Assembly (NCBI GenBank): GCA_947473045.1
Contig: CANJCO010000003.1
Coordinates: 1 to 64,000, forward strand
Source: Myxococcales bacterium
GTDB lineage: Bacteria; Myxococcota_A; Polyangia; Polyangiales; Polyangiaceae
Direction of reading: 5' to 3'
DNA: 64,000 bases
A program made the translations under genes and the position numbers. Positions 53,357 to 59,854 of the stretch are shown here, one piece after another. The stretch's first letter is position 1, and each line of letters starts with the position of its first letter. Below the pieces are notes generated by a model. The model was given only the letters and a program-made list of their open reading frames with translations, did no database searches and had not been told where the DNA came from.

Positions 53357-53824
53357 TTACATGGTGCAGTGCGCGGCGCAGTTGGCCTGAAGGCAAGTAG
53401 CGTAGTTGGCGCCGGCTGAAACCGAGGCTCCCGGCTTGGTCGCGTTGCACTTGGCGAAGCAGTTGCCAGTCTCTCCGGAGGCGTCTTTGGGCGCGCCCGC
53501 ATCGGCAGTGCACCCGCGGTAGCAAGTGAGCAGATCGACGCAGGCCTTGTCGCCAAGGCACGCGTTCGTATACGCGCAGCAGCTCGTGGTCAGGCACGCC
53601 GCGCAGCTTGGTGGATCGGTCGCGACCGACAACACGCACGGAGCCGCGTCGGCGAGCCCAGTTCCGCCCCCGGGGGGCGGCGCGGCCGAGTCGGGGCTGT
53701 CGCCTCCGCCCGATCCTCCGCCGCCCGTCGTGTGAACGAGCGAGGACGTCTGCGTCGGCGTCTGCTCGCACGCGGCGAAAGCAGCCGCCGCACCGAGCGC
53801 GAAGATAGCGGTTGTGAGCTTCAT
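53357..53824 (-). CDS. Small Cys-rich lipoprotein (paralogue 2)
   Basis: A 155-residue protein with signal MKLTTAIFALGAAAAFAAC (lipidated C19). A Gly/Ser/Pro linker is followed by a Cys-rich domain: PSCAACLTTSCC, NACLGDKACVDLLTCYRGC and YATCLQANCAAHC. The same arrangement occurs in the next gene upstream (53838), so these are tandem paralogues. AGGAG lies about 8 bases before the ATG. Many myxobacterial lipoproteins show this pattern, but no function can be assigned. It is last in the putative sigma-54 operon. Confidence 0.7.
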   Translation of the reverse strand: MKLTTAIFALGAAAAFAACEQTPTQTSSLVHTTGGGGSGGGDSPDSAAPPPGGGTGLADAAPCVLSVATDPPSCAACLTTSCCAYTNACLGDKACVDLLTCYRGCTADAGAPKDASGETGNCFAKCNATKPGASVSAGANYATCLQANCAAHCTM

Positions 53825-53837
53825 AGAAAACTCCTGC

Positions 53838-54350
53838 TTACTTGCAATCAGCAGCGCACTTGCTGTGGACGCAGTTGTTGTAGTCGCCGCCGAGCTTCGA
53901 CGCGGCCGGGTACTTCATCACGCACGCGCCAACGCATTGCGAATAGTCTTGGCCCGCATCGTTGACCGGTCCACCACCACCGCCACCACCGCCACCACCG
54001 CCACCACCGCCACCACCGCCACCATCGGTGGGCCCGCATGCGTTGATGCAAGCTGCGATCGCCGTGCAGTCCGCGTCGGCGAGGCAGGCGTTTGCGAGTT
54101 GGCAGCACGAGGTCGCCAGACATGCGCCGCACGTCGGGTTTGGTGCCGCGACGGTCAGCTTGCAACCGCCGTCACTGTCGGTGCCGCCGTCGTTGCCCGA
54201 CGGAGTCGACGCGTCGGGCGCTGGTGTGGCGCTGTCGGACTGGGCATCGGGAGCGAGCAACGTCGACTTCGCGGGAGTCGTGGTGTCATTGCAGGCGAGC
54301 AGGAGTGCGCCACCAGACACGGTGATCGCGAGTGCAATTTTGAAGTTCAT
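53838..54350 (-). CDS. Small Cys-rich lipoprotein with poly-Gly tract (paralogue 1)
   Basis: A 170-residue protein starting at the ATG that overlaps the upstream stop (ATGA). The signal ends LLLAC (C20). The Cys-rich part (PTCGACLATSCC, NACLADADCTAIAACINAC, YNNCVHSKCAADC) matches the neighbouring gene at 53357. Between the two Cys blocks lies a run of 18 glycines encoded by 9-base repeats. The tract is probably a flexible spacer. Function is unknown. Confidence 0.7.
   Translation of the reverse strand: MNFKIALAITVSGGALLLACNDTTTPAKSTLLAPDAQSDSATPAPDASTPSGNDGGTDSDGGCKLTVAAPNPTCGACLATSCCQLANACLADADCTAIAACINACGPTDGGGGGGGGGGGGGGGGGGPVNDAGQDYSQCVGACVMKYPAASKLGGDYNNCVHSKCAADCK
53971..54025. repeat. 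9-base minisatellite encoding poly-Gly
   Basis: About six copies of CCACCACCG (one imperfect at each end) occupy 53971-54025, read on the minus strand as GGT/GGC codons for 18 glycines inside the small Cys-rich lipoprotein. Unit length is a multiple of three, so copy changes would alter spacer length without shifting the frame. Confidence 0.9.
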
Positions 54351-57300
54351 AGGGCGTCCACGCAATCGAACGTCTGCTGCCACGCGATGAGCGTCGGCGC
54401 CAGGTTCTTATCTGGGGTTGGGTTGAGAGCCATGTTCACTTGAAGCATGGGGTGGGAGACTTGGTTCGCTCCGGCGATCGCGTTTGCGACCGACGCGAGG
54501 ATCCACACGGGATGGGAGACGGTCGAGACCGCGAGGGGGATAACGGCGCCGAGCGACTGCGCGTTGTCTCCGGTCTGTACGGTGAACGTGATGTTCGCCG
54601 TACCGCTGCCGTTGCTCGGGATGGTGTCCTGCCAGGCGAAGTCGCGCCACTGCACGTACTTGCCCGCGGGGCAGACCGCCGTGAACTGACGGGTGAACGT
54701 GGCCGGCCCAAAAGCGGGGGCGGGCGGGGGGAGCGGGGTAATGCACCCTCCGAGATTGAAGAGCAGGAACTCCGCTGCGTCTTCTTGCGCGGTGAGTGGG
54801 CTCACCGGACATTCTTGCGGGAAGGTGAACGACTGACCGCCCTGCGCCAGGTGCATGTCGGTGTACATGCCGCGCCCGTACTGCTGGGCGACAGGCACGT
54901 TGAGCGGCGCGTCGAAGGTGAAGTCGGCGGGCACGTTACCGTTCTGATACGTCACGACCTGCTTCGAGAGGCCAGTGGTCGAATAGGTGTCGTACCGGGT
55001 CGGCGAGATGGTGAACTTTCCGGGCGACGAAGCCGCGCCGATGTAGCTCATCCACGAAGAGAAGTCGGCACCGGTTGGCAGCGCCAGGTTAATCAATCCG
55101 ACGTTTGGATCGCCATAGTTGAGCGCGCCGTCCGGCGCCCAGTTGGCGACTCCCGGGAAGGGACTTTCGATCCACTTACGGCCGTAGTGAGACGCGAAGA
55201 GGCGGCCGCCTCCTCCGAGGTACTGGCTGAGCGCTGAGTATGTCGGCGCTCCGACGAAGCTCCACGGACCCGAGTTGATGTATTCGGTTCCGCAGTCACA
55301 CGGCAGCATGACGAGGTCGTACGGCTTCAGCGTGTTCACGTTCTGCATGAACGTGCTCGGCGGCGGGTTGCTGCCGCCCGAGAGCGGAATGCCGTCTCCC
55401 AGGTAGTAGTCGACTGCGCCGCCGGCGCCCGGGCTCTTGAACTCGGAGGAGTCGATGCCGATGCGGGTCAGCAGGCACTCCATCGGGTCGCAGCCGTTGG
55501 CCGTAATCGCGATGTGGGGCATGTTGCCTTCGCCCTGATTTTTCGGCAGGCGCGTGTTGGCTGCAGGCACCGCCGCGCTGACGCACGAGCTGACGTTGAT
55601 GGTGGTCTGTCGGCGCCACTTGCCGACCTGCACGACGAGCGGAATCGAACCGCTCGGCACGCCCGTCAGCGTGAACTTCCCGTCAACGCCGGTGAGGGCA
55701 TAGGTGACCGCCGGAGGCAGGTTTCCGCCGCCGCCGCACGCGTCAGGCTGCGCGCCCGCCGGAATCGCCGGCAGCGGCAACGTCGCCGGAACATAGACGT
55801 ACGCATTGAAGATCGGGTTCTTGCCCGCCGGATCGAGGACGACACCGGTCAGCGTCGTGGGCGAGTTTACGGGGCACTGCGCGACCTGGCACTGGAAGCC
55901 CAGGCAGTTCTGCCCGCAGCCTGCCGCGGGCACGGGCACCGGCACAGGAACGGGAGGCGGCGTAGGCGTATTGCAGCCGCAGATCGACCGTCGCGAACCG
56001 CCTCCGCAGGCGATGCCGAGCTGGTCCATGTTGGTGAGGTGGTTGGTCGGGCAACCGGAATAGGTTGAACAGTACAGCGGTCCGACGAGTCCGCTGTTGA
56101 CCGCGTGGGTGCCGGGGGTGTCTTCAAGACACGCATACGTCCAGCTGTTGATCTGTGGCGGTCCGGCAATACCGAACGCGTTGGCGATGGCGGTGCACTC
56201 CGCGCCCGTCGGATCGTCCTGTGCGGCGAACACCGTGGCGTCGGAGGCAGGGGTCGAGCCAATCGCTTTGCAGACGTCGTTGCACGAGGTGCCGCATGTG
56301 GCGTTGTCGTAACACCACGTGACCCCGTTTACGGTTTTACAAGTCGCTGGCAGAGGCCCGTTATTGGGAGGTGGAACGACCACCTGACTTGCCTTGAAAC
56401 AGTAATTGGTGCCGGCGGCGCCTTGACAGTTGTCCCAGACGAACGCCGATTGAGCGCAGTTGCTTGAGCCGCAGTTGTAGTTCGCGCTCTTCTTGTAGTT
56501 TTCGGCAACAACGCTGCAACCACCAATGCCCCAGATGGTTGTCTGACCCGTGTGAGTAATGGTGTTGGGGTTGTTGTTCGTTGAACACGAGTAATCCGAG
56601 AACGAGCCGCCGAACTTGAGCGCGCAGCCTTCCTGGCAGGTGTATGTCGGCGGGTTGGTCGTCCAGTTGACTCCCTGATCAACCTGGTACGAGCCGACGA
56701 GCACGGGCGGACCTACCGGAATGACGGGACCGCTACCGAACACCTGCCATTCAAAGATGACCGGCTTCGGCGCGGCGCCCGCCGGCGTGTTGCAGCCGCA
56801 GATCGACCGTCGCGAGCCGGCTCCGCATGGAATACCGAGCTGGTCCATGTTGGTGAGGTGCTGCGTTGGGCAGCCGGAATAAGTCGAGCAGTAGAGCGGG
56901 CCTACGAGTCCGCTGTTGACCGAGTGGGTGCCGGGCGTGTCCTCGAGGCAGGCGTACGTCCAGCTGGCGATTTGCGGAGGGCCAGCAATACCAAACGCGT
57001 TGGCGATGTTGGTGCACTCGGCGCCCGTCGGATCGTCCTGAGCCGCGAACACCGTCGCGTCGGGGGCGGGCGTCGTGCCGGCCGCTGCGCAAACCGAGTT
57101 GCACGAGGTGCCGCAAGTGTTGTTGTCGTAACACCAGGTTACGCCGTTTACAGTCTTGCAGGTCGAAGGCAGCGCAGCGACGCTGTTTTTGAAGCAGTAG
57201 TTGATGCCTCCGTAGCAGTTGTCCTGACAGTAGGCCGACTGCGCGCAGTTGGCGGAGCCGCAGTTGTAGTTGACGCTCTTCTTGTAGTTTTCAGCAGCGA

Positions 57301-59854
57301 TCGGACAACCGCCGATGCCCCAGATTGTCGTGTAGTTATTATGCGTAATCGTCAGCGGGTTGCTGTTGGTGGAGCAGCTGTAGTTCGCAGCGTTGCCGCC
57401 GAATTTCAGCGAGCAGGCCTCCTGGCAAGTGTACGTCGGCGGGTTCGTTGGCCAAGACGGCCCTGTGGACACGTCGAACGAGCCCACGAGCACCGGGTTC
57501 GCCGGGGGCTGGGGAGCGGCCGTGACGACCCTCACGTTAAAGAGCCGAACCTGCGTCGTGGTGACGGGCTGGGTGAAGGTGTAGTCCCAGTCGTCGTACT
57601 GACCGGTGACGGTACCGTCGGTGATCCACTTGCTGCCGTCCCACCACTGAACGTCGGCCGCGCCGAGGGTGCCGCCCACGTTTCCGCAGCTGTCCTTCAC
57701 CGAATCGCTGCGCGTGTCCATGTGCATCTTGGTCAGCGTTTGGGCTGCCGACCACGTGTATTGCGCCCATTCACCGCTCGCGACGGTGCCAGCGTTGATG
57801 TACGCCCAGTCCGTGCACTTGGTGTTCTGGTCGATGTTGTCCTTGCAGTTCGAAGGTGCATTCGGCGCGACGCTGCCGCCCGAGCTGAGCGTGATGGTGG
57901 CGCTCACCGCTACGTTCGTGATGGGCGTGTTGCCGCCCTGACCGCCCATCGAGCACTGCCCGTTGGGGCTGGTGTACGTCAGGATGACGAGGCCCGCGTT
58001 TCCGCCGGTGCCTTGAATCGTTCCGGGAGCTCCCGCCGCAGGGGGCACCGACTTTTGGAGCGCCCAATTTAGCGAGCCGAGCGCGCCAAGCGTTGGGAGC
58101 GAAGCGAGCGAATCGCCGCCGTTGGTTCCGCCGGCCGTTGGAGGGAGGAACGCGCCGTAGGGCCCGCTTGTTGCGCCGCCGCCACCGCCGAATCCGCCGC
58201 CGCCACCGCCGCTGTCCCAGCCTGAGCCGCCGTTGCCGCCATTGCCGGCGTTTCCGCCGAACCCGCCCACGCCCGAGTAGCCGCCGTTGCCGCCGACAAG
58301 GCTGCCGCCGTTGGTCGCGCCGTTGTAGCCGATACCGCCTGTGTTGCTGCCTCCCGTACCGCCACCGCTGGAATACGGGTACGGTTCTCCGCCGCCGCCG
58401 CCGAACCAGCCGCTGCCGCCGCCGCCGCCGTAGTCGTATCCGCCGCCGCCGCCGCCGCCGCCTACGTAAACCGCGAGCGTGTGCGCGGCCGCGAGGCTGA
58501 ACGAGCCGCTCGCCGCCTTGCCCGCTCCTCCGGCGTTGGCGAAACCTCCGCCCGCGCCGCCGTTTCCGCCGGGGGCGAACGCGACGATGCCGCCGTTGTC
58601 GAGCACCGCGCTGCTGCCGCCGCCGCCGCCGCCGCCCCAGCCGCCGGAGCCGCCGCCCGCGCCGCCGCCGGCGCCGACCATCGAGTAGGTGACGGGAACG
58701 GTGCTGCCGAACGGGTTGGCGATCGAGAGCGCCGAAGTGACCCCGAGGGTGCACGTGGTGGGCGCGCCGGCATCGGGAGAGCCGGCCCCGCCGTCGGGAT
58801 TGCAGTTGTTCGGGCAAACCGTTGTGACCTCGAAAACCTGCCACTCAAACACGATGGGGTTGCTTTGCTGCCCCAGCGTGTTGGTCGTGTACATGTCGTA
58901 GAGGCGCACCTGCGTGGTCGTGACCGGCGCGGTGAACGTGTAGTCCCAGTCGTCGAGCTTGCCGCTTATCGTGCCGTCGGTAATCCACTTGGAACCGTCC
59001 CACCACTGCACCTGCGCGGCGCCGGCCGTACGACCGATGACGCCGCAAGCGCTGACGACGGTCGCGCTCGCCGTATCCATGTGCATTTTGGCGATTTTTT
59101 TCGAGCTCGGCCACGTGTAGGCCAGCCACTGGCCTCCTCCCGGCGCGTTTCCGGCTGAAATCCAGGCCCAAACGCTGCAGTTGTTCGCCTCGAGAACCAG
59201 GTCGTTCGAGTCGGTGACCTGGTATGGCGAGATGGTGCCGCCCGCGCTCAGCGTCGGCGTCGCACTGGGCGCCACGTTGGTGTAGCTCGTGGCGCAAATG
59301 CACGGGCCCGCGTCGGCGCCCGCGTCGGCGGCCGCGTCGGCCCCGCAGTCGCTGCCTTTGCCGAGGAGCGAAATGCCGCCCGCGTCGTTGACGGAGAGTC
59401 CGGGGCCCGCGTCGAGGCCGAGGCCGTTGTCGTTAATTGAAATGCAGTCAGGATCGCAAGGGTTGTTCACACACGGGACAGGCTGACCGAGGCCTTCGAT
59501 CTGCGATTCAGCGCGCGTTACAGGCGCCTCGCTCTTGAACATCGTCTTGTCGCCGACGCACGCTCCCCAGGCCGAACCGTCGCAGGTGCGCTTGCCGAGG
59601 CTGCAGGTGACGACGCCGCCTGATTTCGACAGAACTTCGCCGCATTCGGCCGTCAGTCCAACGCTGTCGCAGGGGCAGCCTTGATCGGGCTTGCTGCAAG
59701 CAACCGCTGTCGAGCCGTTGCCGCTCGGATCGACGCCGCCGGACGGCGCGTTCGAGCAGGCAAACGAAATGCTGATGGCGAGAAGGAGCGACGGGATCGC
59801 GAGCGCCCATAGGCTCGTGTTCTTTCCGCGGCTCCGTGTCTGTGATTCGCCCAT
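54347..59854 (-). CDS. Giant mosaic surface lipoprotein
   Basis: An 1835-residue protein whose start has GGGAG six bases upstream. The signal ends ISFAC (C33). Order: Cys-rich N-terminus (50-190); discoidin/F5-8C-like module (192-342, QWWDGSKWITDGT); Gly-rich stretch (393-640); second discoidin-like module (647-777, same motif); two near-duplicate Cys-rich units of about 240 residues (788-1025, 1050-1296); a carboxypeptidase-regulatory-like domain (about 1334-1420, GVDGKFTLTGVPSG); a GATase1/ThuA-like domain (PHIAITANGCDP, YDLVMLPCDCGTEY, LFASHYGRKW); and a C-terminal beta domain. No enzymatic residues are convincing; adhesion or matrix binding is inferred. Its stop overlaps the next gene. 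Confidence 0.75.
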   Translation of the reverse strand: MGESQTRSRGKNTSLWALAIPSLLLAISISFACSNAPSGGVDPSGNGSTAVACSKPDQGCPCDSVGLTAECGEVLSKSGGVVTCSLGKRTCDGSAWGACVGDKTMFKSEAPVTRAESQIEGLGQPVPCVNNPCDPDCISINDNGLGLDAGPGLSVNDAGGISLLGKGSDCGADAAADAGADAGPCICATSYTNVAPSATPTLSAGGTISPYQVTDSNDLVLEANNCSVWAWISAGNAPGGGQWLAYTWPSSKKIAKMHMDTASATVVSACGVIGRTAGAAQVQWWDGSKWITDGTISGKLDDWDYTFTAPVTTTQVRLYDMYTTNTLGQQSNPIVFEWQVFEVTTVCPNNCNPDGGAGSPDAGAPTTCTLGVTSALSIANPFGSTVPVTYSMVGAGGGAGGGSGGWGGGGGGGSSAVLDNGGIVAFAPGGNGGAGGGFANAGGAGKAASGSFSLAAAHTLAVYVGGGGGGGGYDYGGGGGSGWFGGGGGEPYPYSSGGGTGGSNTGGIGYNGATNGGSLVGGNGGYSGVGGFGGNAGNGGNGGSGWDSGGGGGGFGGGGGATSGPYGAFLPPTAGGTNGGDSLASLPTLGALGSLNWALQKSVPPAAGAPGTIQGTGGNAGLVILTYTSPNGQCSMGGQGGNTPITNVAVSATITLSSGGSVAPNAPSNCKDNIDQNTKCTDWAYINAGTVASGEWAQYTWSAAQTLTKMHMDTRSDSVKDSCGNVGGTLGAADVQWWDGSKWITDGTVTGQYDDWDYTFTQPVTTTQVRLFNVRVVTAAPQPPANPVLVGSFDVSTGPSWPTNPPTYTCQEACSLKFGGNAANYSCSTNSNPLTITHNNYTTIWGIGGCPIAAENYKKSVNYNCGSANCAQSAYCQDNCYGGINYCFKNSVAALPSTCKTVNGVTWCYDNNTCGTSCNSVCAAAGTTPAPDATVFAAQDDPTGAECTNIANAFGIAGPPQIASWTYACLEDTPGTHSVNSGLVGPLYCSTYSGCPTQHLTNMDQLGIPCGAGSRRSICGCNTPAGAAPKPVIFEWQVFGSGPVIPVGPPVLVGSYQVDQGVNWTTNPPTYTCQEGCALKFGGSFSDYSCSTNNNPNTITHTGQTTIWGIGGCSVVAENYKKSANYNCGSSNCAQSAFVWDNCQGAAGTNYCFKASQVVVPPPNNGPLPATCKTVNGVTWCYDNATCGTSCNDVCKAIGSTPASDATVFAAQDDPTGAECTAIANAFGIAGPPQINSWTYACLEDTPGTHAVNSGLVGPLYCSTYSGCPTNHLTNMDQLGIACGGGSRRSICGCNTPTPPPVPVPVPVPAAGCGQNCLGFQCQVAQCPVNSPTTLTGVVLDPAGKNPIFNAYVYVPATLPLPAIPAGAQPDACGGGGNLPPAVTYALTGVDGKFTLTGVPSGSIPLVVQVGKWRRQTTINVSSCVSAAVPAANTRLPKNQGEGNMPHIAITANGCDPMECLLTRIGIDSSEFKSPGAGGAVDYYLGDGIPLSGGSNPPPSTFMQNVNTLKPYDLVMLPCDCGTEYINSGPWSFVGAPTYSALSQYLGGGGRLFASHYGRKWIESPFPGVANWAPDGALNYGDPNVGLINLALPTGADFSSWMSYIGAASSPGKFTISPTRYDTYSTTGLSKQVVTYQNGNVPADFTFDAPLNVPVAQQYGRGMYTDMHLAQGGQSFTFPQECPVSPLTAQEDAAEFLLFNLGGCITPLPPPAPAFGPATFTRQFTAVCPAGKYVQWRDFAWQDTIPSNGSGTANITFTVQTGDNAQSLGAVIPLAVSTVSHPVWILASVANAIAGANQVSHPMLQVNMALNPTPDKNLAPTLIAWQQTFDCVDAL
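55967..56709 (-). repeat. Second copy of the 240-residue Cys-rich unit
   Basis: Encodes residues 1050-1296 of the mosaic lipoprotein. It shares long stretches with the preceding copy (56780-57493), including TVNGVTWCYDN, ATVFAAQDDPTGAEC and SRRSICGCNTP. The two copies are separated by about 70 bases and arose by intragenic duplication. Approximate boundaries. Confidence 0.8.
56780..57493 (-). repeat. First copy of the 240-residue Cys-rich unit
   Basis: Encodes residues 788-1025 of the mosaic lipoprotein. The start of the unit is SFDVSTGPSWPTNPPTYTCQ and the end is the SRRSICGCNTP block. Its partner at 55967 keeps the cysteines and aromatic residues but differs at scattered positions, so the duplication is not very recent. 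Approximate boundaries. Confidence 0.8.
57937..58678 (-). repeat. Gly-rich low-complexity coding tract
   Basis: Encodes about residues 393-640 of the mosaic lipoprotein, with Gly runs of 3-8 mixed with Ser, Asn, Tyr and Ala. The coding strand is dense in GGC and GGN triplets, with long GGC runs around 58411-58470, so it is a candidate for G-quadruplex or slipped structures. Confidence 0.8.

Follow-up and report, generated by a model that had tools for sequence, protein, structure and literature searches.

On the reverse strand of the 64,000-nucleotide stretch of Myxococcales DNA analyzed here (the window), an open frame translates without a stop into 1835 amino acids, with the coordinates, strand, and length given in a preliminary description. 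It probably codes for an exported multivalent binding protein to which modules have been added at the linker between head and backbone (Table 1). As had been proposed, the protein has a mosaic architecture; separate modules of it recur elsewhere. In this reconstruction, a myxobacterial protein that is exported and probably lipid-anchored would have a backbone formed by the head, a carboxypeptidase-regulatory-like domain, an unnamed conserved domain, and a C-terminal domain, belonging to a multi-copy family among relatives. The linker would have acquired first a discoidin-like domain and then a cassette, in which a Gly-rich spacer precedes a further discoidin-like domain bearing two Cys-rich units, each of them a putatively disulfide-locked pair of modules (a+b). 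Discoidin-like domains, a, and b would be interchangeable end modules within the phylum, all three of which are found here on one chain, and the duplication could raise the avidity for a surface ligand such as a glycan or the cell envelope. Low dN/dS values (0.10 to 0.19 within the Cys-rich units and against a paralog in the same genome; ca. 0.15 for unit 1 versus unit 2, and ca. 0.15 to 0.19 for the gene versus the paralog) reveal purifying selection, and thus the gene behaves as one coding for a protein under selection.

Table 1. Parts of the mosaic gene in window coordinates
Feature	Coordinates	Strand	Basis or remarks
Whole gene, 1835 aa	54347..59854	-	Stop-free frame; dN/dS ~0.15 vs paralog
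Signal-like N terminus, residues 1-34, possible lipoprotein Cys33	59753..59854	-	Read by eye
Cys-containing head (GCPCDSVG...), residues 35-184	59303..59752	-	Common to paralog and same-genus relative
Discoidin-like module A, residues 185-345	58820..59302	-	Alignments; profile matches of relatives
Cassette (Gly-rich + discoidin B + unit 1 + unit 2), ~2.8 kb, in frame	55931..58758	-	Absent from paralog
Gly-rich stretch, residues 377-640	57935..58726	-	Sequence
Discoidin-like module B, first part, residues 641-787	57494..57934	-	Alignment
Module a copy 1, residues 788-895	57170..57493	-	Sequence comparison
Module b copy 1, residues 896-1025	56780..57169	-	Sequence comparison
Last strand of discoidin B (VIFEWQVF), displaced to near residue 1034, after unit 1	56735..56767	-	Alignment with discoidin A, paralog, C44, and G297 copies
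Module a copy 2, residues 1051-1160	56375..56704	-	Predicted structure, pLDDT 95.3
Module b copy 2, residues 1169-1298	55961..56350	-	Sequence comparison; poor structure model
Carboxypeptidase-regulatory-like domain, residues 1309-1444	55523..55930	-	PF13620 below cut-off
Unnamed conserved domain (earlier label GATase1-like), residues 1445-1704	54743..55522	-	Widespread in relatives
C-terminal domain, residues 1711-1835	54350..54724	-	Common to paralog and same-genus relative

The internal Cys-rich duplication of about 240 residues was confirmed. Unit 1 (residues 788-1025) and unit 2 (1051-1298) are identical at 192 of 238 aligned positions (81%), and their alignment score of 1073 is far beyond that of shuffled sequences (58 ± 10). 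The unit had been described as an unrecognized and perhaps new module. It is indeed nameless in the libraries searched and recurs as a family, but it is made up of two modules, not one: a (ca. 105 amino acids) and b (ca. 128 amino acids). A search of the own genome with unit 2 brought up two single-module proteins, one on contig C27 that ends in b and lacks a, and one on C67 that ends in a and lacks b. Judging by where their sequences occur, a and b are independent modules that, away from the window gene, are usually found one without the other, often closing a different protein that looks exported; besides the window protein, a single one (in another genome) has both, some 110 residues apart. 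Counted over the available frames, some from incomplete loci, 22 of the 37 distinct copies of a come last in their protein, as do 11 of the 15 of b, the four non-terminal b copies being the two in the window plus the first copy of two tandem pairs. A relationship between a and b was discarded as not demonstrated, with alignments of a1/b1 and a2/b2 scoring under the shuffle mean and a profile comparison probability of 3.2%, although they do have a short stretch in common. In trees, the window a copies grouped with the own-genome C67 copy and one other (clade support, 0.86), while the b clade had a support of 0.58; no claim made here is based on them. Tandem arrangements of b were also seen, with two proteins of one genome ending in a pair of b copies, and in another genome two adjacent open frames carry b at the end of each.

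The cysteines of both modules disappear in pairs, as would be expected from disulfides. Among 36 distinct sequences of a, Cys23 and Cys40 were lost together in all three losses (hypergeometric P = 0.00014), and loss of Cys83 was always accompanied by that of Cys78 (2/36 sequences; P = 0.0048), P values that are indicative only, since the sequences are related. Cys78 was lost once while Cys83 was kept. In the eight sequences of b, the cysteine pairs 4/13 and 19/115 were each lost together once.

The preliminary description suggested a profile search with residues 788 to 1025 and named a match to a characterized family as its refutation; searches with the modules and with the unit retrieved no such family from Pfam, NCBIfam, PHROGs, or the PDB. 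Specifically, 25 members of a gave scattered weak matches at most against Pfam and eight members of b gave none; NCBIfam returned nothing of note for a and no named match for b, searched as part of the whole 1835-amino-acid protein. The a+b unit had no match in PHROGs, neither module had a convincing one among PDB sequences, and no publication on either was recognized in the literature searches made. Structure prediction was successful for half of the unit: a (107 residues, 25 aligned sequences) was modeled with a mean pLDDT of 95.3 and a pTM of 0.87 as an alpha/beta domain of mixed type, in which several strands accompany one clear helix. The fold of b was not obtained, since its alignment was limited to the two copies in the window (block pLDDT of 27 to 63, starting near residue 111). 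Foldseek of the a-alone model against the PDB gave a best E value of 3.8, VIA-align never reached a Z of 2 among 90 Foldseek-ranked chains, and viral structures yielded an E value of 1.4 at best, so that within this scope (PDB and viral structures) the shape is so far unmatched, which is no proof of a new fold. A C-type lectin was considered for a and dismissed, as none appeared among the 30 Foldseek PDB rows of the a-alone model; the a+b model retrieved mannose-receptor rows at E values of 1.6 and 3.3 (TM, 0.14).

Both modules recur in the phylum. Including the window's own genome, the a profile matched 18 and the b profile 8 of the 377 Myxococcota genomes sampled, and a single-sequence search with the whole unit matched 17 of 282. 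When genome contigs were scanned with ten aligned copies of a, 23 loci emerged, among them one in Nannocystis pusilla DSM 53165, a strain with a single copy. Four records titled Klebsiella pneumoniae also have proteins with module a, and these titles look wrong. A second home of module a in Acidobacteriota was rejected; one Holophagae-titled copy was the sole match among 149 genomes of that phylum, so transfer or mis-binning is possible. An origin from mobile elements or phages was likewise rejected, phages and plasmids having no match and viral contigs no confirmed one. In the own genome, three STIG1-repeat (PF04885) proteins end in a discoidin-like domain (C44), in a (C67), and in b (C27), with four, three, and three Stig1 stretches by Pfam, respectively. 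They share with the window protein the discoidin-like, a, or b modules that they bear C-terminally, but the window protein has no STIG1 match in the Pfam search and all three of its modules are internal. Elsewhere, a is carried by proteins with MopE, DUF4215, TSP3_bac plus VWA, SRCR, or Dicty_CTDC repeats, according to a scan of ten proteins, eight of them with a (one of the eight had no match at all).

The two discoidin-like modules flank the Gly-rich stretch and share QWWDGSKWITDGT, at residues 283 and 736, as had been pointed out; aligned with each other, they score 418 against 38 ± 7 for 300 shuffles. The discoidin-like label comes from nine relatives, of which six match DUF7402 (PF24135; best E value, 1.5e-6), two PF00754 (best, 7.7e-4), and one F5_F8_type_C_2 (PF22633; 2.2e-6). 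The best E value of a discoidin-like profile search in the PDB was 0.03. Relatives thus resemble the F5/8 type C (discoidin) and DUF7402 families, but window copy A itself matches none of PF22633, PF00754, or PF24135, and copy B is split by an a+b unit. Unit 1 had been placed after the second discoidin-like module; instead, it sits within it, ahead of the last strand (FEWQVF). In all the other aligned copies (A, those of the paralog, C44, and G297, and more distant ones; nine rows), the IFEWQVF-like last strand comes directly after the preceding loop. The Gly-rich stretch had no match in Pfam or PHROGs and no relevant one in the PDB. An ALK-type glycine-rich domain was considered for it and dropped, as no search made supported it.

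The paralog, on C71, is a 940-residue frame that skips positions 55931 to 58758 of the window (blastn), and hence the Gly-rich stretch, discoidin B, and both Cys-rich units. The parts that it shares with the window gene are 81 to 92% identical (aligned codons: head, residues 15-184, 81%; discoidin A, 91%; C-terminal part, 88%). In a relative from the same genus, the frame has 758 residues; its C-terminal part is 61% identical, its head is recognizable by eye, and both discoidin A and the cassette are missing. Compared with these two frames, the gene seems to have grown by successive additions to a single linker; on a plain reading, the frames of 758, 940, and 1835 residues would be consecutive stages. 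Discoidin on this backbone came to light in no genome other than the window's own, and few cases therefore back the order with A first. Synonymous divergence adds a complication: dS is 0.72 between the b copies and 1.77 between the a copies (a gap that may reflect conversion or constraint), but 0.34 to 0.53 between the gene and the paralog. Since the former values exceed the latter, the units would have duplicated before the paralogs split, and the cassette must then either have arrived preassembled or have been lost from the paralog. The second option, in which the cassette is ancestral, the C71 paralog deleted it between imperfect direct repeats at its edges, and the window gene is the older form, seems to us doubtful. 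It would account for the age of the duplication and for the C71 junction, a hybrid one where ca. 20 bp are imperfectly common to both cassette edges (the exact edges are blurred). However, discoidin and cassette are both missing from the same-genus relative, and in the discoidin copies read from other genomes the domain ends the frame (0 to 5 residues left), so no backbone follows it there.

The backbone parts seem to belong to a large family. The C-terminal half had matches in 38 of the 59 genomes in the sample of relatives, own included, often in many copies, and the unnamed domain with its regulatory-like partner makes up a large nameless multi-copy family in the bacterial family of the host. 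Some backbone relatives are also flanked, on a single side or on both, by extended arrays of a Cys repeat (TC..G..CGP.GDGCGG.L.CG.C....CGGGG.P..CG). Regarding the domain labels proposed earlier, the regulatory-like one has a match below threshold: PF13620 (carboxypeptidase regulatory-like domain) matches residues 1334-1420 weakly (E value, 0.0048; 17.6 bits) and the paralog more strongly (1.3e-4; 22.6 bits), but both fall under the curated cut-off of 32.3 bits. For the GATase1-like label we found no sequence support, 14 relatives giving no such family match in Pfam or NCBIfam and none among PDB sequences, and it thus stays unproven.

At the other end of the protein, the N terminus is hydrophobic and has an imperfect lipobox (SFAC) at Cys33, read by eye. 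Together with the domain company, this signal-like segment suggests export and a surface location, possibly through a lipid anchor.

Binding is the likeliest role that can be predicted for such a protein, and discoidin-like domains elsewhere are usually binding domains. This background argues against modules that are purely structural, i.e., building blocks of a disulfide-rich matrix or of a spore or envelope coat with no specific ligand, which we consider rather unlikely. The company of Cys-rich repeats, the Gly-rich stretch, the many cysteines, and the lack of a recognizable active or binding site would all fit such a material, but placement as single end modules on varied stalks is unlike that of a polymer building block. 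An enzyme active on carbohydrates or peptides, with the unnamed domain as catalyst and the modules merely targeting it to its substrate, appears improbable. Certain C, D, E, and H residues of the domain do not vary among its 14 members, and it adjoins the regulatory-like domain, but no enzyme family was matched in Pfam or NCBIfam, and the best PDB sequence rows were weak (E value of 0.05, to a stretch of a beta-N-acetylgalactosaminidase). Returning to the multivalent binding protein, a more far-reaching and tentative version, which we regard as somewhat less likely than not, is that a represents a new fold and that a, b, and discoidin are swappable binding heads of Myxococcota Cys-repeat stalks, stacked here on one chain.

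Myxobacteria are rich in large Cys-rich proteins that look exported and have no assigned use, and two recurring nameless modules, one of which (a) has a confidently predicted shape still without a match, provide defined pieces for their study. Besides, the three forms of the gene (no discoidin, one discoidin, and the full cassette) make the growth of a mosaic protein traceable step by step. Just downstream of the gene lie two more frames of the minus strand (53357-53824 and 53838-54383), both of them small, Cys-rich, and lipoprotein-like; they have a common cysteine spacing, C..C....CC, and the latter contains a long Gly run.
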